Source: a virus
Length of the DNA stretch: 32,686 nucleotides
Reading direction: 5' to 3' (one strand)
Virus record (IMG/VR): IMGVR_UViG_3300044733_001452
Span: 1-32,686 of that record
A program made the translations under genes and the position numbers. Shown piece after piece: positions 17,856 through 31,161 of this stretch. The notes under the pieces were generated by a model that did not search any database, had not been told where the DNA came from, and saw nothing but the letters and a program-made list of their open reading frames with translations. Position 1 is the first letter of the stretch; the number at the start of each line of letters is the position of its first letter.

Positions 17856-17858
17856 CGA

Positions 17859-19925: not shown

Positions 19926-20175
19926 CCAAAGAAACCTCAAAGGTAATTCTAGCACCAGTAGTATTGATATACTTATGTCCCATTTCCATATTCATACTTA
20001 CCACCTGTGCCTCACCATTTTTGATTTTTTCTGCTACTTGTTGAAAAGATGCTTTCAAGTCATCAAGGTCATAAGATTTAAGTTTTGATAGTTTTGGTTT
20101 CTCTACTGGTTTTGGAGGTTCTGGTGGTTTTGGATTGTAGAGTTCATTATATTTTTCTATGAGTGGGTTAGTCAT
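19915..20175 (-). CDS. Pro-rich hypothetical protein (86 aa)
   Basis: MTNPLIEKYNELYNPKPPEP, a Pro/Lys-rich linker (15-30), then a helix and a beta-like end. Could be a partner-binding peptide. ATGA overlap upstream. Confidence 0.7.
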   Translation of the reverse strand: MTNPLIEKYNELYNPKPPEPPKPVEKPKLSKLKSYDLDDLKASFQQVAEKIKNGEAQVVSMNMEMGHKYINTTGARITFEVSLDDY

Positions 20176-20375
20176 CCTCCCAAATCTCCACTCACTACAA
20201 TAGGTTCTACATCACCACAGACAACTTCTGCGTTCATTTGTTCCATAATAATAGACACCTTATCCATAACTCTTTCTCTGGTTTCTTGTGTCCAAATGCT
20301 ATTTCCAACGACACTCAAACTTTTATAAAGAGTATTATGGATTACCATAAGGTCTGCTGCTGATAGTTTAGTCAT
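20172..20375 (-). CDS. small hypothetical protein (67 aa)
   Basis: MTKLSAADLMVIHNTLYKSL; two helices then a beta-like tail. ATGA overlaps at both ends. Function unknown. Confidence 0.7.
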   Translation of the reverse strand: MTKLSAADLMVIHNTLYKSLSVVGNSIWTQETRERVMDKVSIIMEQMNAEVVCGDVEPIVVSGDLGG

Positions 20376-20506
20376 TCCTCATCCCCAATATTTCCCCAAC
20401 GATGAAGTGCTTCACGAATAGTATTTCTAACTTCGGGATAAAGATTGTAATACCCTCCAATCTCATCCCAAAGTTCATCAATTTGTTCGTCGGTTGGTTC
20501 AGTCAT
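20372..20506 (-). CDS. small acidic protein (44 aa)
   Basis: Found in a gap. MTEPTDEQIDELWDEIGGYY, ending HRWGNIGDEE. Its first 7 nt and the 24 nt before it belong to a 31-nt direct repeat shared with the 20549 gene start. ATGA overlap at its end. Confidence 0.68.
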   Translation of the reverse strand: MTEPTDEQIDELWDEIGGYYNLYPEVRNTIREALHRWGNIGDEE

Positions 20507-20508
20507 AA

Positions 20509-20547
20509 TCAATAATCAACTCCTTCTGTTTTTTCAATTTCAGTCAT
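20509..20547 (-). CDS. possible 12-codon mini-ORF
   Basis: ATG with GAGGTAAAG upstream, reading MTEIEKTEGVDY then TGA two nucleotides before the next ATG. Could be a leader peptide coupling translation of the 20372 gene. Size makes it uncertain. Confidence 0.35.
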   Translation of the reverse strand: MTEIEKTEGVDY

Positions 20548-20548
20548 T

Positions 20549-20815
20549 TTACTTTACCTCACCTTTTCGTAAGTCAATAAACACAAATTTATCATTTATT
20601 TGATGAATTATAAACCACGAAGAGTTTTCATCATCAATCATAGTTTTTACTTCATCAAGAGTATCATACAACTTCAAAAACTCCCAATCACTCCATTTAC
20701 CAGTAAGTTCGTGATGAGTTCCTTCATCAATCCAAAATTGAAAAGAATACTGAAAGTCAGTATCACTTATATTACGAATTTTATGAGTATCGGTTAGGTA
20801 TAGTGGTTCAGTCAT
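20549..20815 (-). CDS. hypothetical protein (88 aa)
   Basis: MTEPLYLTDTHKIRNISDTD; Trp/Phe-rich middle (FQYSFQFWIDEG) and a beta-like C-terminus (SSWFIIHQINDKFVFIDLRK). A TTG two codons upstream is better placed from AAGGAG and is an alternative start. Function unknown. Confidence 0.68.
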   Translation of the reverse strand: MTEPLYLTDTHKIRNISDTDFQYSFQFWIDEGTHHELTGKWSDWEFLKLYDTLDEVKTMIDDENSSWFIIHQINDKFVFIDLRKGEVK

Positions 20816-20858
20816 AATCAATAATCAACTCCTTGGTATTAATGTTGAAGGATTTCAT
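20808..20858 (-). CDS. possible 16-codon mini-ORF
   Basis: ATG overlaps the stop of the 20855 gene as ATGA; reads MKSFNINTKELIIDYD and stops inside the start of the 20549 gene. The same arrangement as the 20509 mini-ORF suggests a coupling device. Confidence 0.4.
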   Translation of the reverse strand: MKSFNINTKELIIDYD

Positions 20859-21061
20859 TTCACATCCACCCAATCATCATAATAATATCCATAAGAACCT
20901 CCACCACTATGATTTTTACATAGAATATTACTACAAGAAAACCAATAGTCAAAGTTTTTACTTTCTGGTCGCACTTCCAAAAGAGATTGATTACACAGGT
21001 ATTCTAACACAGGATTTTCACAATCGGTGCATTTACCAACAACACCCAAACAATCATTCAT
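20855..21061 (-). CDS. small Cys-rich protein (68 aa)
   Basis: CTDC (11-14) and CSNILC (43-48) plus a Cys at 23 suggest a zinc ribbon or knuckle. C-terminus Gly/Tyr-rich (GGGSYGYYYDDWVDVK). ATGA-type overlap with the upstream gene. Confidence 0.7.
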   Translation of the reverse strand: MNDCLGVVGKCTDCENPVLEYLCNQSLLEVRPESKNFDYWFSCSNILCKNHSGGGSYGYYYDDWVDVK

Positions 21062-21227
21062 TTTCTTTCCTCCAAGTGTGTAGGATTTCTCCTGTTTCCT
21101 TATGAATCAAATGTGCCCAATCAACTTGGTTGGTTTCACACACTCTAACAAAATTTTCTTTACTTGAACTATAAGCAACAATAGGAAGAAGGTGGGAGTG
21201 ATGATAGTAGATTGCGGAAAGGGTCAT
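21054..21227 (-). CDS. small hypothetical protein (57 aa)
   Basis: Found in a gap. MTLSAIYYHHSHLLPIVAYS, ending HTWRKENE. ATGA overlap with the upstream gene and an 8-nt overlap with the next. I recall no family. Confidence 0.65.
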   Translation of the reverse strand: MTLSAIYYHHSHLLPIVAYSSSKENFVRVCETNQVDWAHLIHKETGEILHTWRKENE

Positions 21228-21439
21228 TGTGGGTCTCCTACAAGTCCAGAATATTTTTCTCTATCCCAACCATCAGTATAACCTCTTTCATATTCAATTT
21301 CAGCAACTCGTTGAGCAAACTTCGTAGCAACCTCACGAAATGCGTTGTTCATAGCACCAGTCATTACACCAGCACCAAGAGTACTCATCCCAAACTCTGT
21401 TCCATCTCCCCAGAGTTCCATTAGTTCTTGTTCAGTCAT
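21224..21439 (-). CDS. hypothetical protein (71 aa)
   Basis: ATG 21439 with AAAGGAACTCC; upstream codons overlap the promoter. MTEQELMELWGDGTEFGMST; Ala/Gly-rich helices (GAMNNAFREVATKFAQRVAE). Function unknown. Confidence 0.7.
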   Translation of the reverse strand: MTEQELMELWGDGTEFGMSTLGAGVMTGAMNNAFREVATKFAQRVAEIEYERGYTDGWDREKYSGLVGDPQ

Positions 21440-21463
21440 TGGAGTTCCTTTGTTTGTCCTACT

Positions 21464-21495
21464 ATTATAAGGCATCACAGACCACTCTGGATGCC
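21464..21495 (-). promoter_or_regulatory. promoter with stem-loop
   Basis: Stem-loop GGCATC-N13-GATGCC (21471-21495) running into -10 TATAAT (21464-21469). The diverged TGTGCCAGTTCTTCAAGTGTCC copy lies just upstream, inside the end of the 21495 gene. Confidence 0.62.
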
Positions 21496-21704
21496 TACTG
21501 TGCCAGTTCTTCAAGTGTCCTCTGTTCCTCGTAAATCACATAATTACAAAGATGCTCAATATCTTTTGCATTCACATTACCAAGAAGTCTTACATTTGGT
21601 TCCCAAGAACAAGCACAAATCCGTAGTTCCTCAGCAATTTTCTTGATGTTTTCATAATCCTCATTCATACTTTTGAGTGCGGTTTCCCATTCTTCGTCAG
21701 TCAT
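21495..21704 (-). CDS. small acidic hypothetical protein (69 aa)
   Basis: MTDEEWETALKSMNEDYENI; helical. The C-terminus TLEELAQ is encoded by the cassette element. ATGA overlap upstream. Confidence 0.68.
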   Translation of the reverse strand: MTDEEWETALKSMNEDYENIKKIAEELRICACSWEPNVRLLGNVNAKDIEHLCNYVIYEEQRTLEELAQ

Positions 21705-21868
21705 CGTTCAGCAACAACGATAAAATCATTCATAGAAATACTCCTCTTACTTTTAGCAAGAATACCTTGATTGGGAAAATAAGGAACTGCTACAAGATTA
21801 TAGAATGGTCTCAACTGCTCATAGAGAGTATAAAGGTGTCCGTCTTTCTTGTATCTGTAGAGTTTCAT
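21701..21868 (-). CDS. small basic protein (55 aa)
   Basis: Found in a gap. MKLYRYKKDGHLYTLYEQLR, beta-like and basic, ending FIVVAER. Starts from the junction GGAGGCACTATGA. Confidence 0.66.
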   Translation of the reverse strand: MKLYRYKKDGHLYTLYEQLRPFYNLVAVPYFPNQGILAKSKRSISMNDFIVVAER

Positions 21869-22068
21869 AGTGCCTCCAGTTCATCAGCAAGTTCATAAAG
21901 CAATCGAGCATCAACTACCATATCTTCTATATCCTGGTCTCTACAACACTGATAGTATTGATGTTCATTCACAATAGCACGAATAACAGCAACAACTCCA
22001 TCTTTTGGAAAGTTGTAAGTATCCTCTGCTTCGTATGCTCTCATAATCTTTTTTGCTCTTTCAGTCAT
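21865..22068 (-). CDS. small acidic hypothetical protein (67 aa)
   Basis: MTERAKKIMRAYEAEDTYNF, helical, ending DELEAL at the GGAGGCACTATGA junction. Function unknown. Confidence 0.7.
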   Translation of the reverse strand: MTERAKKIMRAYEAEDTYNFPKDGVVAVIRAIVNEHQYYQCCRDQDIEDMVVDARLLYELADELEAL

Positions 22069-22241
22069 AGTGCCTCCACATTATAGGAAAGACGATTTAG
22101 ATAATCTACAACAGGGTCAAAGTAGAGTTGGTCAGCAACCTCACGGATTGCCGATGCCAGTGCTTCCTTCATATCATCTGTGGGTTCAACAATCAATTCT
22201 GCTTTGAATGCTTCCCAAACTTTGTATGCTGCGTCAGTCAT
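22065..22241 (-). CDS. small hypothetical protein (58 aa)
   Basis: Found in a gap. MTDAAYKVWEAFKAELIVEP, ending SYNVEAL at a second GGAGGCACTATGA junction. The helical middle (KEALASAIREVADQLY) recalls the 21865 and 21224 proteins. ATGA overlaps at both ends. Confidence 0.67.
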   Translation of the reverse strand: MTDAAYKVWEAFKAELIVEPTDDMKEALASAIREVADQLYFDPVVDYLNRLSYNVEAL

Positions 22242-22465
22242 AGTTCTAAAAGTTCATCACAAATAGCATCAATCTCTTTGAGACATTCATCCCATCCAGC
22301 ATTAAACATCACATCCAGTTCATCAGTAAAATCAATCTTATTAGTTCCTGATAGTTGCTTACGAAGTTGTTGAAGAACTTCTTGAAGCATCCAAGCAGTA
22401 TTGTGTGCTTCACTTTTACAAATAACTTTTAGAAGTTCTTCTGCTCGTTCTTTATTCGTGGTCAT
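22238..22465 (-). CDS. small hypothetical protein (75 aa)
   Basis: ATG 22465 gives MTTNKERAEELLKVICKSEA; helical, acidic C-terminus. Overlaps the end of the 22452 gene in another frame. Confidence 0.68.
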   Translation of the reverse strand: MTTNKERAEELLKVICKSEAHNTAWMLQEVLQQLRKQLSGTNKIDFTDELDVMFNAGWDECLKEIDAICDELLEL

Positions 22466-22634
22466 AATACATCTCCTGTTCATAACGGACATAATCACTT
22501 TGAAGATAGTTAAAGAACTCTCCGTCTTCACTTCTCATAGTATAGCACCATTCATCAAAGATTTCCCCAATCCACCACCACCCGACTTGGATTTTTTCAA
22601 AGAAGTGCATAGGACGATTATAGAGTTTAGTCAT
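22452..22634 (-). CDS. small aromatic-rich protein (60 aa)
   Basis: ATG 22634 overlaps the upstream stop (ATGACTAA). MTKLYNRPMHFFEKIQVGWW then WIGEIFDEWCYTMRSEDGEF; a Trp-rich core, not clearly membrane. Function unknown. Confidence 0.66.
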   Translation of the reverse strand: MTKLYNRPMHFFEKIQVGWWWIGEIFDEWCYTMRSEDGEFFNYLQSDYVRYEQEMYYDHE

Positions 22635-22896
22635 TCCATCCATCAAAGTATTCTGTGAAAAAGTTAAAACTCAAACCAACCTTACCAACTTGAAAATCTA
22701 CTCCAAAAAGAGAAGAAGAAGTAAGAAATGAGAGCATGATGTGAAATCCACCATTACTATGAACTAAACTACTGGGATTTTCATAATTCACCCAAAGTAA
22801 TGAACGATTATTGATGACACCGAACTGCCAAGTGCGGTCAGTTTCATCATTATCCCAAACTTTTTTATCGTATTGAAAGAGTTTAAGTGGTTTCAT
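22627..22896 (-). CDS. hypothetical protein (89 aa), paralogue-like to 23905-24144
   Basis: MKPLKLFQYDKKVWDNDETD; ends LSFNFFTEYFDGWND. Shares the layout K.LF.Y.KK at the start and a hydrophobic aromatic stretch ending in a GxWD/N-acidic tail with the 23905 protein. Function unknown. Confidence 0.68.
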   Translation of the reverse strand: MKPLKLFQYDKKVWDNDETDRTWQFGVINNRSLLWVNYENPSSLVHSNGGFHIMLSFLTSSSLFGVDFQVGKVGLSFNFFTEYFDGWND

Positions 22897-22909
22897 CGGT
22901 TTGTTTCTT

Positions 22910-22953
22910 ATGAAGTCATTATACAAGGAAAAAGGGCACCTGTGGAGATGCCC
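22910..22953 (-). terminator. terminator fused to a promoter
   Basis: GGGCA-N10-TGCCC (22934-22953) followed by TTTTT on the minus strand, then -10 TATAAT (22918-22923) and a weak dyad ATGA-ag-TCAT. A diverged TGTACCAGTTCGTCAAGTGTCC copy precedes it. Confidence 0.7.
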
Positions 22954-22965
22954 TGTACCAGTTCG

Positions 22966-23217
22966 TCAAGTGTCCTTTACTACCTCACACAAAGGAAAGA
23001 TTTTGGTTCTTGAAATAAATCCAGGTTTTGTGTATTTGTCCTTATAATCTGCTGCGAATACCCGTGCTTGTTCTTTGGTTTCAAAAGGTCCAAAGTATCT
23101 GTGTAGCATATCAAATCTACCACCATCAGGAGTATAAAGACCCACTATCCACTTATGAGAATGTTCTGGATAAGTGTCATTTTCAGCAATCCAGTCGTAA
23201 TATTCGTCCTTATTCAT
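22966..23217 (-). CDS. hypothetical protein (83 aa)
   Basis: MNKDEYYDWIAENDTYPEHS; middle GPFETKEQARVFAADYKDKY. The fold is probably alpha/beta. Its end (EVVKDT) is in the cassette element. Function unknown. Confidence 0.7.
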   Translation of the reverse strand: MNKDEYYDWIAENDTYPEHSHKWIVGLYTPDGGRFDMLHRYFGPFETKEQARVFAADYKDKYTKPGFISRTKIFPLCEVVKDT

Positions 23218-23468
23218 TTCAGTTCCTCTTCAATCCTTTCAATCTCAAAGATTTCATTTAGAAACTCTAGACCATACTTACCAACAACCCAAGCATCCTT
23301 GTCCTCAAAGAACCTATTCCCGATGGTTTCCATATCATAACCTTCTGTGGTTTTATTGAAGAAGGCAACGACATAACAACTATCACCAGAGTCGTGAGTA
23401 TACCACTTGACGAGTTCATACTTGTTGTTGACTTTGCTCCAACGGAACTCAATATCACGAAACCTCAT
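23214..23468 (-). CDS. hypothetical protein (84 aa)
   Basis: MRFRDIEFRWSKVNNKYELV, beta-rich, acidic C-terminal helix (FEIERIEEELK). ATGA overlaps at both ends. Function unknown. Confidence 0.7.
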   Translation of the reverse strand: MRFRDIEFRWSKVNNKYELVKWYTHDSGDSCYVVAFFNKTTEGYDMETIGNRFFEDKDAWVVGKYGLEFLNEIFEIERIEEELK

Positions 23469-23659
23469 TTGCCCTCCAGTTCATCAAGTTTCCCATTCAC
23501 AAAACCAGTCATATCAAGTGTGCGTGGGTCTATACCTTCATCAAGACAATCAAGATTGAACTCCATCACAGCACCAAGAATCAGACATGCTTTACGTTTA
23601 TCATCCAGTGGTTGAGAAACATAATGAATGATGTGCTCGTAGAGTTGGTCGTAGGTCAT
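23465..23659 (-). CDS. small hypothetical protein (64 aa)
   Basis: ATG 23659 lies after the promoter at 23682. MTYDQLYEHIIHYVSQPLDD; helical, ends GKLDELEGK. Confidence 0.68.
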   Translation of the reverse strand: MTYDQLYEHIIHYVSQPLDDKRKACLILGAVMEFNLDCLDEGIDPRTLDMTGFVNGKLDELEGK

Positions 23660-23681
23660 TGGTTTGTTATGTATGAGAGTA

Positions 23682-23708
23682 TTATAGGGCATCCACAGGG
23701 TCTGTGGT
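23682..23708 (-). promoter_or_regulatory. promoter with stem-loop
   Basis: Stem-loop CCACAG-ggt-CTGTGG (23694-23708), -10 TATAAT (23682-23687); ACAGACCC box as in other cassettes, and a TGTGCCAGTTCTTAAGGTGTC relative of the common element upstream. Confidence 0.65.
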
Positions 23709-23726
23709 GAGGTCTTGTGCCAGTTC

Positions 23727-23912
23727 TTAAGGTGTCTCCTTACTCCAATAGTATTTCAGTTTATCACCATCCGCAGAAATATTCAAGTGGTAGATTTTAT
23801 CATCCTCAGTATAAACTCCAATCCAAAGAGTTCTTTCATTCATACTTTCCAGATGAAACATTTGAATGTCTTGCAACACAATTTCGTCTGGGTTTTCTTG
23901 AAATCTACTCAT
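23727..23912 (-). CDS. small hypothetical protein (61 aa)
   Basis: ATG 23912 overlaps the upstream stop (ATGAGTAG). MSRFQENPDEIVLQDIQMFH; beta-like C-terminus (RTLWIGVYTEDDKIYHLNIS). Function unknown. Confidence 0.67.
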   Translation of the reverse strand: MSRFQENPDEIVLQDIQMFHLESMNERTLWIGVYTEDDKIYHLNISADGDKLKYYWSKETP

Positions 23913-24144
23913 CCCAACTACCCCAGGTAATACCAAGAAGTTCAAAGGCAAATCCAAACTTCCAGAACCAGAAGAGAATATCAATCACACGATTGTTTCC
24001 AATTCCAATTTGAAGATAAGGATTTCCAGGATATTCACTCCAATCAAGACTAAGTTGTAAAAATGAACGTCTTTTACCTTTGAGAAGAGTAAATATATGC
24101 TCTACACCATAGTCTTCTTTTTTGCGATAATCAAAGAGTTTCAT
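23905..24144 (-). CDS. hypothetical protein (79 aa), paralogue-like to 22627-22896
   Basis: MKLFDYRKKEDYGVEHIFTL; hydrophobic aromatic C-terminal stretch (IDILFWFWKFGFAFELLGIT) ending GSWDE, possibly membrane-associated. Overlaps the upstream 44-aa gene by 14 nt. Confidence 0.68.
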   Translation of the reverse strand: MKLFDYRKKEDYGVEHIFTLLKGKRRSFLQLSLDWSEYPGNPYLQIGIGNNRVIDILFWFWKFGFAFELLGITWGSWDE

Positions 24145-24265
24145 TTCTTTTCTCCATAAGTTCTTTCAACTTCTCTTTGCCGTATTCAGTCAATTCGTGT
24201 TTTTGTTTGCGGAGTTCTTCTATTTCTTCTTGAGTGAGATTAACCCACGGCATATCATCGTTCAT
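24131..24265 (-). CDS. small charged helical protein (44 aa)
   Basis: Found in a gap. MNDDMPWVNLTQEEIEELRK then Lys/Glu-rich helix to ELMEKRNETL. ATGA overlap with the upstream gene. Confidence 0.66.
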   Translation of the reverse strand: MNDDMPWVNLTQEEIEELRKQKHELTEYGKEKLKELMEKRNETL

Positions 24266-24987
24266 CGTAGTTTCTCCTTCATTTTATTGAGACAATGATT
24301 AAATCCATCAACAAGTAGTTCGGTATCTACATTCTGTGAACCAGCAGCAGATTGATACTTTGGAAGCCAATCTTCTACCAAATCTACAATATCATTACAG
24401 GCATCAAAATCATAACCAAGTTCATCTACCAATCTATTAAAAAGTTTTTGTGCTTGGTGTTTTTTAATTAACCTATTCACAACCTCATCCATCGGTTTTG
24501 GATTATCTTTCTCATCCCAATATGCTCTCACATTCCTATAAGGTTCATCAACTACATCATCATACTTCCCCTTCTTCACATCGTTGAACCACACACCTTC
24601 AAGCAAACGATGAGTTTCACCATCAGTAATTTTTACCAAAATCACACCATTATCAGTTTTTTTCTTATACCAATTGTGGTTCATACCAGAAAAGTCAAGA
24701 CGATAATAAACCTCATCATTATAAGAGACAACCTCACCCTTAACAGTATATTGAAGGTTCATTCTTGGTGGTTGAGATTTATGTGTTTCAATCTCTTTGA
24801 GGAGTTCCAGTTTCTTTTGAAGCACTTTGATTTCTGCTTCTGTTTTTTCAATATCAGATTTGAAAGTCATTTGTTTAAAATAAGGAGTAGCATCCATCAC
24901 ACCATCTTTGATTGCTTGTCTAAAGGCATCACGGAGACCAGTATCCACTTGCTCTGGTGTCTGGGGAGTTGGTTGAAATTCAGTCAT
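24262..24987 (-). CDS. hypothetical protein with coiled coil (241 aa)
   Basis: MTEFQPTPQTPEQVDTGLRD; coiled coil at about 43-68 (DIEKTEAEIKVLQKKLELLK), then a beta-rich domain (VKGEVVSYNDEVYYRLDFSG) and a helical C-terminus. One of the largest proteins in this block, no family recognised. ATGACTGA start overlapping the previous stop; ATG 24996 is also possible. Confidence 0.72.
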   Translation of the reverse strand: MTEFQPTPQTPEQVDTGLRDAFRQAIKDGVMDATPYFKQMTFKSDIEKTEAEIKVLQKKLELLKEIETHKSQPPRMNLQYTVKGEVVSYNDEVYYRLDFSGMNHNWYKKKTDNGVILVKITDGETHRLLEGVWFNDVKKGKYDDVVDEPYRNVRAYWDEKDNPKPMDEVVNRLIKKHQAQKLFNRLVDELGYDFDACNDIVDLVEDWLPKYQSAAGSQNVDTELLVDGFNHCLNKMKEKLR

Positions 24988-25333
24988 TTGTTTCATCCCA
25001 AGGTGCTTTACGATTCATAAGTTCTTTAATTCTTTCCACCACAGCAGGGTCTTGTGGTTCATTGATTCGTCGCACAAGTTCATCATATGCTTCTGCAGAC
25101 AAAGTAATTCTCTCAGGTTCTTGTGCTAATCTCAACCTGCGTTCTGGACTGATGGTTAGATTGTATGGGTCATCATAAGGATAGATGTATTCTCGATACC
25201 ATCCAATACTCAAACTCTCCCAGAACTCACCATAACCCCATTCATCACCGTCATCATAACAGTCAAGAATATACAGGACATTACGAAATCCATCAAGGAA
25301 GAGTTCCCATTTTGTTGGGTTTTCAAATCTCAT
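24980..25333 (-). CDS. protein with TacA-like (DUF1778) antitoxin C-terminus
   Basis: 117 residues. N-terminal part is acidic and aromatic (LDCYDDGDEWGYGEFWESLS), unrecognised. C-terminal about 74-113 (ERITLSAEAYDELVRRINEP then VVERIKELMNRKAPWD) follows the toxin-neutralising tail of DUF1778/TacA antitoxins, including the final PW. The ribbon-helix-helix DNA-binding part is missing and no acetyltransferase toxin is adjacent. Could be an anti-toxin decoy. Confidence 0.5.
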   Translation of the reverse strand: MRFENPTKWELFLDGFRNVLYILDCYDDGDEWGYGEFWESLSIGWYREYIYPYDDPYNLTISPERRLRLAQEPERITLSAEAYDELVRRINEPQDPAVVERIKELMNRKAPWDETND

Positions 25334-25482
25334 TTGTTTTTTCCAATCACAGCAATTACTTTACGGTTTGGATACTTCTCTACAATTATATCACGAGCAT
25401 CCTCATAATCAATCGCATCTTCTACAACTTCATAATACACAGTCTTATCTGTGGAATCATAAGTTTGGACTTCATAAGTCAT
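25330..25482 (-). CDS. small acidic hypothetical protein (50 aa)
   Basis: ATG 25482 has GGAGGAGAAG upstream. MTYEVQTYDSTDKTVYYEVV then DYEDARDIIVEKYPNRKVIAVIGKNK in shorter form: beta-beta-alpha-beta pattern of a small Tyr-rich domain. ATGA overlaps at both ends. Confidence 0.7.
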   Translation of the reverse strand: MTYEVQTYDSTDKTVYYEVVEDAIDYEDARDIIVEKYPNRKVIAVIGKNK

Positions 25483-25673
25483 TTCTTCTCCTCCATTTGC
25501 ATATAGGCACATTCTTTAAATCGTTCCCAATCATTACGACTGAAGTTGTCTGAAGCATAAGGAATACCCACAGCACTCGCACAATATCGTGCTACACTTT
25601 CTGGCATATGTTCCAGTTGATATGAGTGTGTGGGATATTGAAGAATTGTAGAAGCAGCAAGAAAAGCAATCAT
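25479..25673 (-). CDS. small exported or membrane protein (64 aa)
   Basis: N-terminal hydrophobic stretch (MIAFLAASTILQYPTHSYQL) resembling a signal sequence; two Cys (31, 55) could form a disulfide after export. Next to a membrane-anchored Pro-rich protein, overlapping it by 4 nt. Function unknown. Confidence 0.66.
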   Translation of the reverse strand: MIAFLAASTILQYPTHSYQLEHMPESVARYCASAVGIPYASDNFSRNDWERFKECAYMQMEEKK

Positions 25674-25942
25674 GGTTTTTCGGGAAGCACAGGAGGGGGA
25701 GGAGTTAGAGGAGGTTGAACCACTTGAACTGGAGGAGTTACAGGTTGCTGAACTACTTGAATTTGAGGAGTAATAGGTTGTTCTTTTTTTGCTTCTAGTT
25801 GTTGCTTTAGGTCTTCAATAATAACCTGTTGTTTCTGACTATTCTCTTGTTGATTGTCAAAGACCTTATATGCAGTAATAGAAGTTGCTGCGATTGTACC
25901 CAGAGCAGCAATCGTTGAAACAGTAGTACTAAACCGACTCAT
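25670..25942 (-). CDS. membrane-anchored coiled-coil Pro-rich protein (90 aa)
   Basis: N-terminal membrane helix (about 7-25), coiled coil (about 31-55, Gln/Lys-rich) and a Pro-rich tail with repeats (QQPVTPPVQVVQPPLTPPPP). This topology is like an inner-membrane spanin subunit or a periplasm-spanning protein. No lipobox partner is visible, so a lysis role is speculative. Confidence 0.62.
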   Translation of the reverse strand: MSRFSTTVSTIAALGTIAATSITAYKVFDNQQENSQKQQVIIEDLKQQLEAKKEQPITPQIQVVQQPVTPPVQVVQPPLTPPPPVLPEKP

Positions 25943-26138
25943 TTTTCTCCAAGATAGTTTTAATTTGTTTAAGGTCTTCTACTCGTTGTTTTGCTTCATC
26001 ATACTGCTCACAATACCAATCAAGGTCATTGTTCTCATAATTAGTTTCCTCTCTAATGTCCCATTCAAGACATTGTAGGTGCCCTTCTTGGTCTTCTATA
26101 AAGTAGTTGAGAGTATCAATCAGAGACATTTTCATCAT
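25929..26138 (-). CDS. acidic coiled-coil protein (69 aa)
   Basis: Start uncertain (ATG 26138, 26135 or 26129; the open frame reaches a GTG at 26156). Helical, DWYCEQYDEAKQRVEDLKQI. Overlaps the next gene by 14 nt. Confidence 0.62.
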   Translation of the reverse strand: MMKMSLIDTLNYFIEDQEGHLQCLEWDIREETNYENNDLDWYCEQYDEAKQRVEDLKQIKTILEKNESV

Positions 26139-26179
26139 CAAATTCAAATCATTCACACAAAGAGTTCATTAGTTAGGTT

Positions 26180-26695
26180 TCATTTTACTTTACCATGAAG
26201 AGGACAGTCACCATTCACCCATTTACGGTCATTAGGCATCTCTGCATTGTCCATCACGGGGCACTTGCAACCTGCTCTACATGCTTGATCTGAACCAGGA
26301 ACTAAACCATTCCACTCTTTATATTGCTCTGGAAGAACTCTTGCAAGTTTTTCTTTTAACTCACGAACTTCTTCCTTTAATGCATAATACTCATCATCAG
26401 TGTGATATTGCTTATCTTGCAGTTCATATTCATTCATCAACTTCTTCATCTGTTCTCCATCGTTACTATCGTTGAATGCAAGACGGCAAGCACCATCCAT
26501 AATGCTATACTCAGCAAAATCCATAGCACGAAGAAATGCCTTGAACAGTTCAAAGTGCTGATAAACATTCATATCTTGAGCAGGTGCTTCAATCGTAATT
26601 GAATGCTTATCAACAATCTCTGGAAAATATTTACTCGAAATAGTTGCTTCAGTGTTGTTGATGTAGCAGAGTTTTACCGTTGCGTCGTAAGTCAT
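26180..26695 (-). CDS. hypothetical protein with C-terminal Cys/His motif (171 aa)
   Basis: Residues about 1-85 beta/alpha, 95-118 a coiled coil (LKEEVREL), and 137-168 a Cys cluster (CRAGCKCPVMDNAEMPNDRK then WVNGDCPLHG). The CxCPVxDN...DCPLHG ending recurs in phage proteins and probably binds zinc. Function unknown. Confidence 0.72.
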   Translation of the reverse strand: MTYDATVKLCYINNTEATISSKYFPEIVDKHSITIEAPAQDMNVYQHFELFKAFLRAMDFAEYSIMDGACRLAFNDSNDGEQMKKLMNEYELQDKQYHTDDEYYALKEEVRELKEKLARVLPEQYKEWNGLVPGSDQACRAGCKCPVMDNAEMPNDRKWVNGDCPLHGKVK

Positions 26696-26700
26696 TTGAT

Positions 26701-26865
26701 TTAACGAGAATAATAAAGTTCTTCTTGAATGCTTGTGAGTTTATTATACAATTGATTGACAGAAATCGAAAGAGTTTCTTCAACAATCATTTGATTTTGT
26801 TTTGAAAGCAATTGAAGTGAAGTCAGAATAGCATCAATCTCTGGTTTATTCAGTTCTACTGTCAT
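26701..26865 (-). CDS. small helical protein (54 aa)
   Basis: ATG 26865 with GGAGG upstream. MTVELNKPEIDAILTSLQLL; two amphipathic helices. ATGA overlap upstream. Confidence 0.68.
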   Translation of the reverse strand: MTVELNKPEIDAILTSLQLLSKQNQMIVEETLSISVNQLYNKLTSIQEELYYSR

Positions 26866-27068
26866 TTTACAATCCTCCAATGTTCGTTTCCATTCTTCGG
26901 CAACCACATAAAGTATTTCCTATTCAAAGAGGCAAGAAATATCATATCACCTTTTTCTTGTTCTACGTGGCATCCGTGAAGATTATCCATAATGTTTGCA
27001 AACCGATTCTTTGCTTTTGAAGAAATTGGTTCAACATTCACCATTTTACGTTTTTCTTTAGTCATCAT
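26862..27068 (-). CDS. small basic hypothetical protein (68 aa)
   Basis: MMTKEKRKMVNVEPISSKAK; basic N-terminus, beta-like end (YFMWLPKNGNEHWRIVK). Overlaps the upstream stop (TGATG). Function unknown. Confidence 0.68.
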   Translation of the reverse strand: MMTKEKRKMVNVEPISSKAKNRFANIMDNLHGCHVEQEKGDMIFLASLNRKYFMWLPKNGNEHWRIVK

Positions 27069-27475
27069 ACTGCAAGAGCACCAGAGGGGATTTCAACGAC
27101 TTCAAACGTTTTTCCGTCTTCATACTTATAACAATCATAGCATACCCATTCTCCATTTACAAAGAGATAAGCATACTCTTCACCATTTTCAAGATACTCA
27201 TTGAGATTAGCATCAAGACGAGGAGGACAATCCTCACCACGGAGGGAATAATAATTTGGACCATACTTGGATGCTTTACCATCACAATCAAATGGAGTAT
27301 CAGTCCAGCAAGAACTCATATCACCACCATCAATCAGTTCTTCGGCAAGAGATTTGGAGTTGTAGTGAGTAGTAAGAATACGACCCAACCAAGATGGGTA
27401 TCCATCCCAATGGTGATAAGAAGATAATACAGAACCATCAGAGAGTTCAATACCGATGCGTGACCTTGTACTCAT
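27065..27475 (-). CDS. conserved-looking phage hypothetical protein (136 aa)
   Basis: MSTRSRIGIELSDGSVLSSY then HHWDGYPSWLG is a recognisable N-terminal signature of many phage proteins of unknown function. CxxC-like pairs further on (CWTDTPFDC, CYDCYK). Alpha/beta fold likely. First gene after the 27.5-kb promoter. Confidence 0.78.
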   Translation of the reverse strand: MSTRSRIGIELSDGSVLSSYHHWDGYPSWLGRILTTHYNSKSLAEELIDGGDMSSCWTDTPFDCDGKASKYGPNYYSLRGEDCPPRLDANLNEYLENGEEYAYLFVNGEWVCYDCYKYEDGKTFEVVEIPSGALAV

Positions 27476-27487
27476 TTGCTTTGTTTG

Positions 27488-27558
27488 ATTACTCTGTAAT
27501 TATAGCAGGTCTGCAAGGGCATTGGAGGGGTTGTGTGCCAGTCCTCACAGTGACACAA
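27488..27558 (-). promoter_or_regulatory. promoter/stem-loop cassette
   Basis: Hairpin TTGTG/CACAA around the TGTGCCA element (27531-27558), -10 TATAAT (27499-27504), dyad ATTAC-N3-GTAAT (27488-27500). Heads the long run of small genes from 27.5 kb downward. Confidence 0.68.
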
Positions 27559-27578
27559 GGCACAAAAATAGGAGGCAT
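27489..27578 (-). CDS. possible 29-aa read-through ORF across the cassette
   Basis: AAGGAGG, 4 nt, ATG, then MPPIFVPCVTVRTGTQPLQC and an end AIITE, stopping just before the 27065 gene. It runs through the hairpin and promoter. Because its ribosome site and AUG are also inside a terminator hairpin, real translation is doubtful. Confidence 0.25.
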   Translation of the reverse strand: MPPIFVPCVTVRTGTQPLQCPCRPAIITE

Positions 27579-27589
27579 TACACCTCCTT
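27565..27589 (-). terminator. rho-independent terminator
   Basis: AGGAGG-tgtaatg-CCTCCT on the minus strand followed by ATTTTTG. Ends transcripts from the HNH gene and structured region above, before the 27.5-kb cassette. Confidence 0.75.
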
Positions 27590-27810
27590 GTAAGTTTTGG
27601 GTAAGAAGGAAACTTATAACCCCCTCACTCGTTTAGTTCAAACAGAAACTGTTTGACGAGAGAAAGCAACAATGTTGTTTACGTTTGTTTGTTTGTTCCG
27701 TCAACAGATAATACATACATCCCAGTCGATTCTATTTTATCCCCACGAAATGGAGATAATCGGTACTGCCCCGATGTGTTGGAATATAGAGGTTTATCCT
27801 CTTGAACTCT
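27590..27810 (-). ncRNA. structured noncoding region, candidate stable RNA
   Basis: No gene in this stretch. On the minus strand it can form AGAGG-ataaa-CCTCT, ATCGG-ggcagta-CCGAT, an 8-bp TTATCTCC/GGGGATAA stem, a long-range TTGACG/CGTCAA pair and CAAACAG-ttt-CTGTTTG, and ends in a terminator. Together this suggests a processed RNA of about 200 nt beside a tRNA cluster, comparable to the stable RNAs of T4. It could equally be a long 3' untranslated region. Confidence 0.4.
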
Positions 27811-28350
27811 TTATATAGTAGCACACATTTCAATTAAATTCAAGAGAACATCTTCAGCATATTTGTTTTTAGCAAAATTTAAAGTCGTGCTAATAAATTG
27901 TATATTTCCTTTTACATATCCTTTTGAACTATCAATCCTATCTAAACTAGCAACTAAATTTGGATTTGATTTATCGTGAGATTGGTCAGTCAAAGGAAGA
28001 ACTAATTCTCTTTTTAAATAAGGACATTTGCCTTCTTGTATTTCCCACACTTCTTTTAGATAATTCAAATCAATATCACATTCTCTATTTTTAGATTTAC
28101 TTCTGCTTCTAACTTTTTTTAAAGTTTCTCTAAAAGAAGAATAGTCATCTTTATCACTTCCACTAAATTGCTTTATAAAATTTTTGTTAGTTTCACTTTT
28201 TCTCCAACTATCCAAATAAGAAGTATCATGAGAACTGCTGGAGCATTTTAAACTACAAAAAAATGGAGTTCCCAATTTAATTTTCCTATTATATTCACTT
28301 TTAATTTTTTCAAACTGCGACCCACATTTTTTACAAATACAACTAACCAT
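27811..28350 (-). CDS. HNH-family homing endonuclease
   Basis: 179 residues from ATG 28350, which has GGAG 8 nt upstream; a GTG at 28362 is open but lies before the ribosome site. CKKC (6-9) and CSLKC (32-36) form a zinc finger. The C-terminal block EGKCPYLKREL and ASLDRIDSSKGYVKGNIQFI with N.AKN after it is the phage SLDRID-type HNH signature. A perfect TATAAATA lies 22 nt before the ATG. Flanked by tRNA-Ala and a structured RNA. Confidence 0.8.
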   Translation of the reverse strand: MVSCICKKCGSQFEKIKSEYNRKIKLGTPFFCSLKCSSSSHDTSYLDSWRKSETNKNFIKQFSGSDKDDYSSFRETLKKVRSRSKSKNRECDIDLNYLKEVWEIQEGKCPYLKRELVLPLTDQSHDKSNPNLVASLDRIDSSKGYVKGNIQFISTTLNFAKNKYAEDVLLNLIEMCATI

Positions 28351-28371
28351 AGTGCTCTCCACAACTATAGT

Positions 28372-28379
28372 TATTTATA
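28372..28379 (-). promoter_or_regulatory. consensus T4-type late promoter (TATAAATA)
   Basis: Exact match to the T4 late consensus on the minus strand. Predicted RNA start near 28366 leaves a 16-nt leader that contains the GGAG ribosome site of the HNH gene. Confidence 0.75.
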
Positions 28380-28400
28380 ATATTCCCTTACTCTCCACAA

Positions 28401-28473
28401 TGGAAGCATCGAGTCTCGAACTCGAAACCTCTTGAATGCAAATCAAGTGCTCTACCAATTGAGCTATGCCCCC
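28401..28473 (-). tRNA. tRNA-Ala (TGC)
   Basis: Acceptor GGGGGCA/TGCTTCC (two G-T wobbles), anticodon arm CTTGA-TTTGCAT-TCAAG giving TGC, T loop GTTCGAG, discriminator A. Confidence 0.92.
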
Positions 28474-28478
28474 ATAAT

Positions 28479-28497
28479 GAGTGTAATTAATACACTC
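28479..28497 (-). other. inter-tRNA spacer hairpin
   Basis: GAGTGTA-attaa-TACACTC, perfect 7-bp stem between tRNA-Ala and the Asn-like element. One of five comparable hairpins next to tRNAs here. Confidence 0.75.
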
Positions 28498-28500
28498 AAA

Positions 28501-28573
28501 CTCCCCACCTAGGTAACGCTCCTAGCTATCTCGAATTAACAGTTCGGCCCATTCGCTTGCTTGGTCGTGGGGA
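28501..28573 (-). tRNA. tRNA-Asn-like (GTT) with non-canonical D and T loops
   Basis: 73 nt in exact tRNA spacing: acceptor TCCCCAC/GTGGGGA (7 perfect pairs), discriminator G as in tRNA-Asn, anticodon arm CCGAA-CTGTTAA-TTCGA giving GTT, T stem CTAGG/CCTAG (5 perfect pairs). But the T loop is AGCGTTA instead of TTCRANT, the D loop (GCAAGCGA) lacks GG, and position 8 is G. Elbow contacts of a normal tRNA could not form. Decayed, specialised or decoy tRNA are all possible. Confidence 0.6.
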
Positions 28574-28584
28574 TTATAAAAACG

Positions 28585-28746
28585 TCAAGTATTCATTAAA
28601 TACTCAACAGTGTTTGCTACATCATTCATAGCATCACGAAGATTTTCTCTTTGACCTGATTCTTGTTTAACAATTGGACGATGATCATCACAAAGAGTCC
28701 ATCTCCATTGATTCATTTCTTTACAGTACCAAAGATTAATTTTCAT
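28585..28746 (-). CDS. small hypothetical protein (53 aa)
   Basis: Found in a gap. MKINLWYCKEMNQWRWTLCD, ending ANTVEYLMNT. I recall a similar short protein in cyanophages, unverified. Its ATG overlaps the end of the 28736 gene. It ends 11 nt before the Asn-like tRNA. Confidence 0.7.
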   Translation of the reverse strand: MKINLWYCKEMNQWRWTLCDDHRPIVKQESGQRENLRDAMNDVANTVEYLMNT

Positions 28747-28891
28747 TCTTGTTGTATTCGATTTTAATCCAATTCATAAGTGCATTGAGTTCCATTCTTT
28801 TTTCTTCAGTAAAGTCATTACCTTTATTGAAAAGATAAAAGTCCAGTGCTTCAATTACAACTTCTCTATCTCTTTGTGAAATTAAGGACAT
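28736..28891 (-). CDS. small helical protein (51 aa)
   Basis: The frame is open into tRNA-Pro, so the ATG at 28891 is used: MSLISQRDREVVIEALDFYL, ending KIEYNKNEN. Function unknown. Lies between tRNA-Pro and the 53-aa gene. Confidence 0.66.
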   Translation of the reverse strand: MSLISQRDREVVIEALDFYLFNKGNDFTEEKRMELNALMNWIKIEYNKNEN

Positions 28892-28931
28892 AATGAATTT
28901 GTAGTATTTGGAGATATTTAGATTCTCCAAG

Positions 28932-29003
28932 TCGGGGTGACTGGGATCGAACCAGTGTCTTTTTGCTCCCAAAGCAAACCGTCTACCGCTGACTTACACC
29001 CCG
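28932..29003 (-). tRNA. tRNA-Pro (TGG)
   Basis: Acceptor CGGGGTG/CACCCCG, anticodon arm TTTGC-TTTGGGA-GCAAA giving TGG, T loop GTTCGATC, discriminator A. Confidence 0.93.
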
Positions 29004-29010
29004 TAATGTT

Positions 29011-29030
29011 TAGCAATCTTATGATTGCTA
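29011..29030 (-). other. inter-tRNA spacer hairpin
   Basis: TAGCAATC-ttat-GATTGCTA, perfect 8-bp stem between tRNA-Pro and tRNA-Val. Confidence 0.78.
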
Positions 29031-29031
29031 G

Positions 29032-29104
29032 TGGGAAATCACAGATTCGAACTGTGGACTTTCTGCGTGTAAAGCAGACACTCTAACCACTGAGTTAATC
29101 TCCC
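29032..29104 (-). tRNA. tRNA-Val (TAC)
   Basis: Acceptor GGGAGAT/ATTTCCC, anticodon arm TCTGC-TTTACAC-GCAGA giving TAC, T loop GTTCGAATC, discriminator A. Its first base directly follows the encoded CCA of tRNA-Gly. Confidence 0.92.
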
Positions 29105-29179
29105 TGGAGCGGACAATCGGATTCGAACCGACGACATCTAACTTGGAAGGATAGCGTTCTACCACTGAACTATGTCCGC
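29105..29179 (-). tRNA. tRNA-Gly (TCC) with encoded CCA
   Basis: Acceptor GCGGACA/TGTCCGC, anticodon loop CTTCCAA giving TCC, T loop GTTCGAATC, discriminator T followed by CCA in the DNA. The only tRNA here with an encoded CCA. Confidence 0.92.
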
Positions 29180-29194
29180 ATTATTTGATTGTAA

Positions 29195-29214
29195 GACAGA
29201 ATCAAAATTCTGTC
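29195..29214 (-). other. inter-tRNA spacer hairpin
   Basis: GACAGAAT-caaa-ATTCTGTC, perfect 8-bp stem between tRNA-Gly and tRNA-Thr. Confidence 0.78.
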
Positions 29215-29215
29215 A

Positions 29216-29287
29216 AGCCCCCGACAAGATTTGAACTTGCGACCAATGGTTTACAAAACCATTGCTCTACCACTGAGCTACAAGGGC
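29216..29287 (-). tRNA. tRNA-Thr (TGT)
   Basis: Acceptor GCCCTTG/CGGGGGC (two wobbles), anticodon arm ATGGT-TTTGTAA-ACCAT giving TGT, T loop GTTCAAATC, discriminator T. Confidence 0.92.
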
Positions 29288-29291
29288 ATTA

Positions 29292-29307
29292 TGCTCCATA
29301 AGGAGCA
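29292..29307 (-). other. inter-tRNA spacer hairpin
   Basis: TGCTCC-ataa-GGAGCA, perfect 6-bp stem between tRNA-Thr and tRNA-Ser. Confidence 0.75.
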
Positions 29308-29308
29308 A

Positions 29309-29393
29309 CGGAAGTGGTAGGATTCGAACCCACGATGGCTTTCACCATGCTTGTTTTCAAGACAAGTTCCTTCAACCACTCGGACACACTTCC
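29309..29393 (-). tRNA. tRNA-Ser (TGA)
   Basis: Acceptor GGAAGTG/CACTTCC, anticodon arm CTTGT-CTTGAAA-ACAAG giving TGA, long variable arm, discriminator G. Shares acceptor sequence with tRNA-Ser(GCT) at 16.3 kb. Confidence 0.92.
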
Positions 29394-29413
29394 ATTCATC
29401 AATTATACACTAT

Positions 29414-30253
29414 CTATACAACGGAGTCAAGTGTATAATTGGTAATGAGCAACTCAGTCTTTACATTGTCCTGAGTTCCTTTCTCACCACGATGAACCAT
29501 CGAATACCTTAACTTCCATTCATTTAGATTATACTCTTTATAACGACTCAATAACCAATCATTGAGATTGTAAGTAATCATAAAACGATGAGGACATTTA
29601 TCCACATCATCAGCAAATCTTTCGTGAGAGAATGATGAGTGAAGTTTTCTTCCAGTTCCATAAAGGAAGTCCTTAATATCATAAGGTGGGTCAAGAAATA
29701 CAAACACATCATCACCCTCTGCGTTCATCACTTCTTCATAGTCAATGTTTGTAATCCTCCAGTCCTTAATAATATAAGAATACCTAGGAAGTTTATCAAT
29801 ACCAACCAATGAGAAGTTAGAACGTGATGCTTGAACTGAAAATGTTGAGTTCTCTGTAAGACCAGAATAAGAACACTTATTCATTACAAAGAACGCAACT
29901 GCTTGGTCGATTGGTTCAAGATTACCAATCGTGTGAGAGTAATCATCAAAGAGTTCTCGGTGTGCATTATCATCACCATTCACTTCTTCTTTGATTGCTC
30001 TCAACTTATCTTTAAGAACTTGTCCGTCATCACGAAGTTGAACCCAAAAGTTATACAAGTAATAATACTTGTCATTGACCCAGATGGGAACTTTTGGATA
30101 GTTTTGTGATACCATTAAAGAAATGCTTCCACCACCCAAGAAGGGTTCACGGAACTCTTTGAAGTCACTTGGAAACCAAGGAGCAAGAGTTTTTAATGCT
30201 TTACTCTTGCCTCCAGGGTAACGGAGCATTGTCTTTAACGGAAATTGTTTCAT
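29414..30253 (-). CDS. dam: D12-class DNA N6-adenine methyltransferase (T4 Dam-like)
   Basis: 279 residues. MLRYPGGKSKAL (9-20) and FREPFLGGGS (34-43) form the AdoMet-binding part, VFLDPPYD (185-192) the catalytic DPPY motif, and NTFSV-like plus ITYN.ND segments complete the MethyltransfD12 pattern of T4 Dam and DpnM. It methylates adenine in a short site (GATC for T4 Dam; site unknown here). Overlaps the upstream 193-aa nuclease-like gene by ATGA, giving a second methyltransferase/nuclease-like pair. Tandem with the tRNA cluster on the same strand. Confidence 0.93.
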   Translation of the reverse strand: MKQFPLKTMLRYPGGKSKALKTLAPWFPSDFKEFREPFLGGGSISLMVSQNYPKVPIWVNDKYYYLYNFWVQLRDDGQVLKDKLRAIKEEVNGDDNAHRELFDDYSHTIGNLEPIDQAVAFFVMNKCSYSGLTENSTFSVQASRSNFSLVGIDKLPRYSYIIKDWRITNIDYEEVMNAEGDDVFVFLDPPYDIKDFLYGTGRKLHSSFSHERFADDVDKCPHRFMITYNLNDWLLSRYKEYNLNEWKLRYSMVHRGEKGTQDNVKTELLITNYTLDSVV

Positions 30254-30831
30254 CGGTTCTTAATCCAGTTATTCATCGTTTCACGAAGAAGGTCAGACAG
30301 TCTATCAGGAGACGCAGGAAAAGTAAAGTTAGCAATATCCAAATCAAGAACAGTGAGTTCATTGATAGGAAATTGAACCATTACCCCATCACCTTTGCTT
30401 ACATAATACTTCTGTGCTGTCTCACGAGAAGCAATAGCAACTCGATAAGCATCACGGTCGATAATCATTACATAATCAAACTTGTCTTCTGTTTTGAACC
30501 GATTGAATGCAACTTCACTCACATCTCCTCGGTAGTTTTTCATCTTAACATCTTTGCAGGTTCCATCTTTTTTGAAGAAACCTTTGAGGAACTTTGCTTC
30601 AATACGAACAAGTTCTTCAAGAACTTTCAAGAGAAAATCAACACCATCTTCGTCAATATATTCAACCTGTGAAAAACAAGCAATAGCAAGTTCAAATACT
30701 TTTGCTCTCAAAAAGTTATCTGAATTACTCTTAAATCCTTTATCAGAATAAGCATCTTTAACTGCCCCAAAGATAAGGTTCCAGTCAAATTCAGTTTCAC
30801 AGATGTTTTTAAATTCAGTAGTCGTAATCAT
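30250..30831 (-). CDS. restriction-endonuclease-like protein paired with Dam
   Basis: 193 residues. LVRIEAKFLKGFFKKDG (74-90), KDVKMKNYRGD (93-103) and KFDYVMIIDRDAYRVAIA (117-134) resemble a type II restriction-endonuclease-like pattern (E-x-K, basic strand, then FDYLLI) often seen beside methyltransferases. No enzyme of known specificity is recognised, and the first acidic residue of a PD-(D/E)XK site is not obvious. Coupled to Dam by ATGA; could be a true restriction partner or a host-DNA nuclease. Confidence 0.45.
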   Translation of the reverse strand: MITTTEFKNICETEFDWNLIFGAVKDAYSDKGFKSNSDNFLRAKVFELAIACFSQVEYIDEDGVDFLLKVLEELVRIEAKFLKGFFKKDGTCKDVKMKNYRGDVSEVAFNRFKTEDKFDYVMIIDRDAYRVAIASRETAQKYYVSKGDGVMVQFPINELTVLDLDIANFTFPASPDRLSDLLRETMNNWIKNR

Positions 30832-30865
30832 AAGTTAGATAATTCTATAAGTTAGAGTTTACGAT

Positions 30866-30881
30866 TTGCCCTTTCGGGCAA
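30866..30881 (-). terminator. hairpin directly after tRNA-Leu
   Basis: TTGCCC-tttc-GGGCAA, perfect 6-bp stem abutting the tRNA 3' end; no T run. More likely a processing or stability hairpin than a terminator, because dam lies downstream. Confidence 0.55.
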
Positions 30882-30965
30882 TAGGAGTAGGGAGACTTGA
30901 ACTCCCACGACCTTAAGGTCAACAGATTTTAAGTCTGGTGTGTCTACCGATTCCACCATACTCCC
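30882..30965 (-). tRNA. tRNA-Leu (TAA)
   Basis: Acceptor GGGAGTA/TACTCCT (G1-T72 wobble), anticodon loop CTTAAAA giving TAA, long variable arm (GACCTTAAGGTC), T loop GTTCAAGTC, discriminator A. Confidence 0.93.
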
Positions 30966-30973
30966 ATAAGACA

Positions 30974-31002
30974 ATCATACCACAGAGAGTTGTGATTGTC
31001 AA
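30974..31002 (-). promoter_or_regulatory. consensus sigma70 promoter for tRNA-Leu and the Dam pair
   Basis: TTGACA, 17-bp spacer, TATGAT on the minus strand, 9 nt before tRNA-Leu. The -35 and -10 are also the arms of an inverted repeat (GACAATCA/TGATTGTC). Confidence 0.88.
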
Positions 31003-31087
31003 GGGTTGCCGTGTGGTTGTGAGTCTAAATCAAAACTCTTTGATAAATGCCCCACTGGATTTTATCTAAAGTCTTGAACCACGGCGA

Positions 31088-31161
31088 TGCTCGCCAAGGG
31101 AATTGAACCCTTCTCCGCCAAATTATGAGTTTGGAGCATTCTACCAGATTGCTAGACGAGC
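31088..31161 (-). tRNA. tRNA-Met (CAT)
   Basis: Acceptor GCTCGTC/GGCGAGC, anticodon arm CCAAA-CTCATAA-TTTGG giving CAT, T loop GTTCAATTC, discriminator A. A paired position 1-72 excludes the bacterial initiator; elongator Met or lysidine-modified Ile cannot be distinguished. The first 10 nt overlap the 3' end of the HNH gene. Confidence 0.9.

Follow-up and report, generated by a model that had tools for sequence, protein, structure and literature searches.

A cyanophage tRNA-Asn(GUU) with a rewired, probably functional elbow and its relatives in phages and bacterial tRNA arrays

Introduction

The elbow formed by the D and T loops has been described as a universal feature of tRNA (PMC7912444, PMC4810234), with the exposed 19–56 pair as a docking site for RNase P, the L1 stalk and T-boxes (PMC4810234) and with U54, U55 and G18 as the main sites of modification (PMC7912444). 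Departures from this scheme have been reported. Animal mitochondrial tRNAs with degenerate elbows lie off the D/T-loop consensus (PMC4394434, PMC7033119), and eukaryotic initiator tRNA carries A54–A58, a non-U54 T loop in which 54 still pairs with 58 (PMC7912444). Among accessory tRNA sets, the Anabaena tRNA operon comes on only under translational stress, and the repressor that keeps it silent acts on rtcB and a slipin gene as well (PMC10272220). Phage tRNAs that resist anticodon nucleases, shifted from the host consensus in the anticodon loop, have been described in a study that called tRNAs with ARAGORN and tRNAscan-SE (PMC10264068).

Here we analyze a tRNA-shaped element from IMG/VR virus record IMGVR_UViG_3300044733_001452, of which positions 1 to 32,686 were studied; this whole stretch of 32,686 nucleotides is referred to as the window. 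The element belongs to a set of tRNAs, termed rewired below, that share some traits with each of the systems above and differ from each. Rewired tRNAs exchange matched pairs and keep 19–56, whereas animal mitochondrial tRNAs lose elbow contacts (PMC4394434, PMC7033119). They change both 54/58 and 18/55, in many isoacceptors, whereas in eukaryotic initiator tRNA 54 alone is altered. As in the tRNAs that evade anticodon nucleases, their shift from the host consensus may serve escape, but it affects the elbow instead of the anticodon loop (PMC10264068).

Results and Discussion

The element, its neighborhood and its detection

A sequence-only reading of the window had placed a tRNA-like element at 28501–28573. 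These coordinates are correct, and the element lies on the minus strand (Table 1), where it reads, 5' to 3', TCCCCAC GA CCAA GCAAGCGA ATGG G CCGAA CTGTTAA TTCGA GATAG CTAGG AGCGTTA CCTAG GTGGGGA G. Its length of 73 nt, the 7/7 acceptor, the 5/5 T stem, the GTT anticodon, G73, the AGCGTTA T loop, the D loop devoid of GG and the G at position 8 could all be verified, and with 7-nt T and anticodon loops and standard spacing the cloverleaf is of regular build. The same reading had all stems kept, which is true of the perfect acceptor and T stems, but the D stem has 3/4 pairs (inner A·A) and the anticodon stem 4/5 (C·A at 27–43). In length, spacing, CUGUUAA loop, G73, G53–C61, R57 and C56 the element resembles canonical bacterial and phage elongator tRNA-Asn(GUU), and it differs from it at positions 8, 14, 15, 18, 48, 54, 55 and 58, with the partners altered too. 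In place of a canonical elbow (TTCRANY with G18 G19) it has AGCGTTA and A18 G19, and with an intact cloverleaf, G55/A18, C56/G19 and a non-U·A 54/58 combination it falls in the rewired class, the A18 G19 assignment being a model with one inserted base at 20a.

Table 1. Positions of the Asn element, its parts and its neighbors in the window, and of nuclease genes beside bacterial tRNA arrays
Feature	Coordinates	Strand	Evidence
Canonical tRNA-Ala(UGC), neighbor	28400–28474	−	ARAGORN, Rfam
Rewired-elbow tRNA-Asn(GUU), 73 nt, no encoded CCA	28501–28573	−	T-loop-agnostic structural scan; 107 homologous copies
Acceptor 5' strand UCCCCAC, 7/7 paired with 28502–28508	28567–28573	−	10 acceptor variants in relatives
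Positions 8–9, GA, with G8 replacing U8	28565–28566	−	8×14 table
D arm CCAA-GCAAGCGA-AUGG; loop 28553–28560 with A18 G19 (model), plus G14, C15	28549–28564	−	Relatives
Anticodon arm CCGAA-CUGUUAA-UUCGA	28531–28547	−	Pairs 29–41 and 30–40 change on both sides
Anticodon GUU (Asn)	28538–28540	−	Sequence
Variable loop GAUAG with G48; C15–G48 proposed to replace G15–C48	28526–28530	−	15×48 table
T arm CUAGG-AGCGUUA-CCUAG	28509–28525	−	Exact arm recurs in other isoacceptors
T loop A54 G55 C56 G57 U58 U59 A60	28514–28520	−	Loop occurs with many other stems
Acceptor 3' strand GUGGGGA	28502–28508	−	Stem covariation in relatives
Discriminator G73 (Asn identity)	28501	−	G73 in 37/37 rewired tRNA-Asn
Canonical tRNA-Pro(UGG), neighbor	28931–29003	−	ARAGORN
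HNH_4 endonuclease genes beside tRNA arrays	L372 18693–19361; L371 4656–5249; L259 2276–2995		

speD and further typical cyanophage genes are present in the phage, and tRNA-Pro(UGG) is the first of an ARAGORN-called cluster with Val, Gly, Thr, Ser, Leu and Met tRNAs that reaches 31161. The 12 tRNAs of the window are spread over 16163–31161 among phage genes and do not form a dense accessory array of at least 15 tRNA genes. A tmRNA-like gene at 27572–27824 (minus strand) scores 79.8 bits with the Rfam cyano_tmRNA model and 55.3 bits with the permuted tmRNA model, both above gathering; blastn against 50,697 phage records found no match to it, ARAGORN did not report it, and it looks like a phage-borne permuted tmRNA of the cyanobacterial type.

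ARAGORN returned 11 other tRNAs from the window, all on the same strand, and missed the Asn element, and Rfam gave nothing at this locus even at E ≤ 10, the RF00005 gathering threshold not being reached. When the window was scanned for tRNA geometry regardless of T-loop sequence, the 11 canonical tRNAs and the Asn element came out and nothing else; 20 shuffles, the reversed window and the complemented window gave zero. Folding energy did not discriminate on either strand and was dropped: that of the element is unremarkable (z −1.4), and its minimum free energy structure retains the acceptor and T stem, not the full cloverleaf. The support for the element is thus comparative and not thermodynamic. 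In viral loci ARAGORN found 977/983 canonical tRNAs, 70/208 of AGCGU type and 0/37 of GGCAG type; RF00005 is passed by some other rewired tRNAs, for instance a Pelagibacter phage Gly tRNA at 49.5 bits.

A conserved lineage of rewired tRNA-Asn

Homologues of the element were retrieved through their D and anticodon arms with a pattern containing CAAGCGA, which places no demand on the T loop but does on the D loop. This yielded 107 full-length copies on about 104 phage contigs from independent metagenomes. Barring one broken copy, their T loops are AGCGTTA, GGCAGTA or GGCGGTA, and a TTCRANT loop was found in none of the 107. Among 15 unique intact sequences, both partners change in 9/9 variable stem pairs, four of which belong to the acceptor (48 cells; mean of shuffles 13.4). 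Pairing is complete (100%) in the acceptor and T stems, the acceptor being 7/7 paired in every intact relative. The GUU anticodon, U33, A37, G73 and U1–A72 are invariant in these 15 relatives, as is the D loop, part of which the retrieval pattern required, while the D stem varies from CCA/UGG to CCG/CGG. G55 and C56 stay fixed in the cyanophage Asn lineage while the stems turn over, and the tRNA neighbors of the element vary from relative to relative. The alignment thus bears out both the stem covariation and the persistence of non-canonical loops that the sequence-only reading had proposed to look for, and its preference for a specialized tRNA over simple decay is upheld: judged by these sequences, the Asn element is conserved and not decaying. 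It also forms a separate lineage, since the nearest canonical-elbow Asn tRNA among the examined loci is identical at just 41/73 positions and the Asn tRNA of cyanophage S-CREM1 at 24/73.

The exact 17-nt T arm occurs in 63 IMG/VR stretches, nearly all tRNA-shaped, with differing anticodons and acceptor stems, and in a search of known phages was met in Vibrio phage CHOED only. This recurrence could have come from a mobile T arm or a shared attachment sequence, but the AGCGTTA loop is also found with other, freely covarying T stems, for which reason the idea was rejected.

Covariation of the elbow contacts

Contact tables were built from D arms of one fixed length, in which positions 18 and 19 are unambiguous (473 of 1,565 unique tRNAs). 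In these, U55 goes with G18 in 276/278 cases and G55 with A18 in 176/190. At 19/56 all four Watson–Crick pairs occur, C56 being matched by G19 in 443/453 tRNAs, U56 by A19 in 14/14, G56 by C19 in 2/2 and A56 by U19 in 4/4. These counts include related sequences; removing redundancy by anticodon, D loop and T loop leaves 328 entries and the same pairing rules, which hold also for loop types outside the search pattern. Mutual information is highest for 18×55 (0.452, against a within-anticodon permutation maximum of 0.053), and 19×56 stands out for position 19 (0.116 against 0.031), D19 versus 55 being at background. D18 correlates with 54, 58 and 60 as well because loop types travel together. 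Position 54/58 is U·A, A·U, G·G, A·A or C·A and combines with either 18/55 state. U8 is found with A14, G8 with G14, and A8 with U14 or A14, and 15/48 covaries as G–C, A–U or C–G, less strictly in rewired tRNAs.

Mapped onto the Asn element, these rules lead us to propose that A18·G55 replaces G18·Ψ55, A54·U58 replaces U54·A58, G8·G14 replaces U8·A14 and C15–G48 replaces G15–C48, and that G19–C56 is kept. The last pair is available under the pairing model that assumes a base at 20a, and 19–56 covaries in the class; A54·U58 is not obviously isosteric with U54·A58. The earlier description of the element as having no canonical elbow is correct as far as it goes, but a compensated elbow appears to take its place, each altered position having an altered partner. 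A Watson–Crick 19–56 pair would leave intact the flat face that RNase P and the ribosome read, whereas the usual targets of elbow modification (U54, U55, G18, A58) are replaced. Such a tRNA would keep its docking face and may be independent of, or unrecognized by, enzymes that read other elbow residues.

Charging signals

G3·U70 is the alanine determinant, and it is present in 14/14 rewired tRNA-Ala and in 4/619 other rewired tRNAs. The discriminators of rewired tRNAs track the amino acid, with G73 in 37/37 Asn, 22/22 Asp and 13/13 Trp, U73 in 21/21 Cys and A in 75/75 Ile tRNAs. U1–A72, which marks tRNA-Asn for the amidotransferase route, is the invariant first pair of the Asn family. Charging signals are thus kept in the class as a whole, the Asn family included, which speaks for working tRNAs rather than decoys, and members of the class look chargeable.

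The wider class in viral genomes

Relaxed IMG/VR scans combined with a structural filter gave at least 164 unique tRNAs with an AGCGTTA loop, of class I and class II, with many T stems and at least 26 anticodons. CCA is encoded in 150 of these at least 164 tRNAs, one scan pattern having required CCA. A loop-agnostic scan of the same loci added the T loops AGCATTA, ATCGTTA, TGCRANT, GGCAGYA, CGCGATA, TTTGANT and more; reversed controls totaling 1.95 Mb gave 0 matches. Frequencies are biased by retrieval, since the AGCGTTA loop served to find many of the sequences and the D loop to find the Asn relatives. Vibrio phage CHOED carries an unannotated rewired tRNA-Tyr, and Vibrio phage pv27 a tRNA-Phe with ATCGTTA plus G18 G19. 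We found no description of rewired-elbow tRNAs in the open-licence literature, and they apparently constitute a large, undescribed class.

Several further observations concern the composition of this class. Ile(GAT) accounts for 40/89 AGCGTTA locus–anticodon cases in viral loci L118–L227 and lies outside the 25 commonest canonical anticodons of the same loci. An unannotated rewired tRNA-Gly(ACC) is present in Pelagibacter phage HTVC008M (L263, 2959–3032), between cobS and a ribosomal protein S21 gene, and in many marine contigs (L123, L150, L208 and others); its A34 is of a kind unusual in bacteria outside Arg. Rewired class II tRNAs with a CTTATAA or TTTATAA anticodon loop, a long variable arm and a tiny D loop (AAG) occur in L126, L133, L143 and others. 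Every CCA-ending tRNA that the scan found in the viral stretches L170 and L136 is rewired (21 and 15, respectively; canonical 0).

Accessory arrays in bacteria

A scan of genomes for Ile-GAT with an AGCGTTA loop matched 35 contigs, of which about 30, mostly from Verrucomicrobiota, are genuine and have long tRNA arrays; the other five show no tRNA structure and were set aside as chance. The complete 5.96-Mb Verrucomicrobiota chromosome G103 has an array of 32 tRNAs for 19 amino acids at about 1,305,043–1,308,640 (L372, 15043–18640). All 32 have a non-canonical T loop with G55, whereas the 42 scattered tRNAs of the chromosome have TTCRANY, except one tRNA-Ala(CGC) with TTTGATC. This tRNA-Ala(CGC) (L410, C1:2726480–2726620) combines U56 with a matching G18 A19, so that the 19–56 exchange occurs outside arrays too. 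The T-arm pattern was found in 6/115 sampled Verrucomicrobiota genomes, with arrays confirmed in two (G001, G103), and the rewired array is for that reason to be regarded as accessory; with the scattered tRNAs canonical as well, the idea that Verrucomicrobiota are a lineage with normally rewired tRNAs was rejected.

An HNH_4 endonuclease gene lies by Verrucomicrobiota arrays; homologues are located next to tRNA arrays on plasmids of Nostoc and Mycobacterium and, among phages, in tRNA-rich ones such as S-CRM01 and Tunturi_5. No rtcB was found beside the Verrucomicrobiota array examined. Tunturiibacter phage Tunturi_5 (L380, 232157–248585) has many tRNAs together with a tRNA nucleotidyltransferase, an RtcB-type ligase and a RimK-like protein, a region that resembles the regulon of the Anabaena tRNA operon. 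The Anabaena cryptic operon and the Nostoc plasmid arrays (PMC10272220) are likewise accessory, and in Nostoc an HNH gene lies alongside and some tRNAs are rewired: Ile(GAT) has GGCAGTA with an A18 G19 D loop (AAAAGTG), and Glu(CTC) has TGCAACT. Most Nostoc array tRNAs have a canonical elbow, as do most of the Mycobacterium plasmid array, whereas the Verrucomicrobiota array is wholly rewired.

What the exchanged elbow may be for

From this comparative evidence we consider it quite probable that this cyanophage element works as a tRNA-Asn(GUU) and that its elbow is made of different residues that remain in contact, and we infer that it would be transcribed, charged and used. With less confidence we infer that it may owe its retention to working without host elbow modification, to escaping enzymes that recognize or cut the normal elbow during infection or translational stress, or to both. 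That rewired tRNAs more broadly form a parallel functional class, their elbow exchanged under selection and evading elbow-reading modification enzymes or tRNA-destroying effectors, with a near-complete second set held in reserve in some Verrucomicrobiota, is plausible but falls a little short of what we would call probable. Three explanations of the exchange come on top of the better-supported claim of a functional tRNA and are alternatives to one another.

The first, which we hold tentatively as a real possibility, is escape from an elbow-reading nuclease or toxin, be it a host defense, the toxin of a rival or the phage's own enzyme, with the rewired survivors sustaining translation. The whole rewired sets in accessory bacterial arrays point this way, as do array-type HNH genes beside arrays on Nostoc and Mycobacterium plasmids and, with RtcB, in Tunturi_5; induction of the Anabaena tRNA operon by translational stress, in co-regulation with rtcB (PMC10272220), and the described phage tRNAs resistant to anticodon nucleases (PMC10264068) would fit as well. 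Our analysis, however, found no specific elbow-reading nuclease, most Nostoc and Mycobacterium array tRNAs are canonical, and rewired and canonical tRNAs are found together in the same phages; with 11 canonical tRNAs in the window itself, an indiscriminate attack on canonical elbows cannot account for everything. Rather less likely is modification independence, by which the elbow would fold without m5U54, Ψ55 and Gm18 so that bulk tRNA matures without host TrmA, TruB and TrmH. It would account for the replacement of exactly the modified residues with retention of C56 and G19 (PMC7912444), but the ATCGT class with G18 G19 retains U55, and modification independence and escape from tRNA-damaging effectors are indistinguishable by sequence.

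The main rival to any such advantage is neutral compensatory drift, in which the contacts of weakly constrained phage and accessory tRNAs change and their partners then repair them. The existence of rarer solutions (T·A/A·G, A·T/G·T, G·G/A·G, and A–U at 19–56), the co-occurrence of canonical and rewired tRNAs in 85/110 loci and the G18 A19 with U56 of even a scattered chromosomal tRNA-Ala(CGC) speak for drift. Against it, AGCGTTA recurs in at least 26 anticodons and in phages of unrelated hosts, rewiring takes in the whole 32-gene array but not the 42 tRNAs scattered over that chromosome, the cyanophage Asn lineage holds G55 and C56 while its stems turn over, and the Ile(GAT) bias falls outside the commonest canonical anticodons; we regard drift as unlikely. 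tRNA 3' halves are classical attachment sites, and an altered T-loop half could in principle block use of the gene by integrases or satellites; such avoidance at the DNA level does not account for the matched changes in the D loop, located beyond the usual attachment core, and is very improbable. The odd elbow on a tRNA shape had also suggested a decoy that traps nucleases, an RNA outside translation, but class-wide retention of charging identity (discriminators and G3·U70 by amino acid), covarying acceptor and anticodon stems and the largely encoded CCA make this reading scarcely credible. A decaying pseudo-tRNA or sequencing error, for which the misses by ARAGORN and Rfam might be taken, can be dismissed in view of 107 copies from independent metagenomes with compensatory stem changes.

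Conclusions

The functional, rewired tRNA that we favor for the Asn element bears on more than one phage. The matched exchange at 18/55, 19/56, 54/58, 8/14 and 15/48 provides natural double-mutant evidence for these contacts and suggests that elbow contacts are interchangeable in working tRNAs. Phage tRNAs are undercounted by tRNA finders, and a rewired elbow is a concrete candidate for the purpose of some of them. tRNAs with a distinct elbow could also be used to test which enzymes and toxins really read it.
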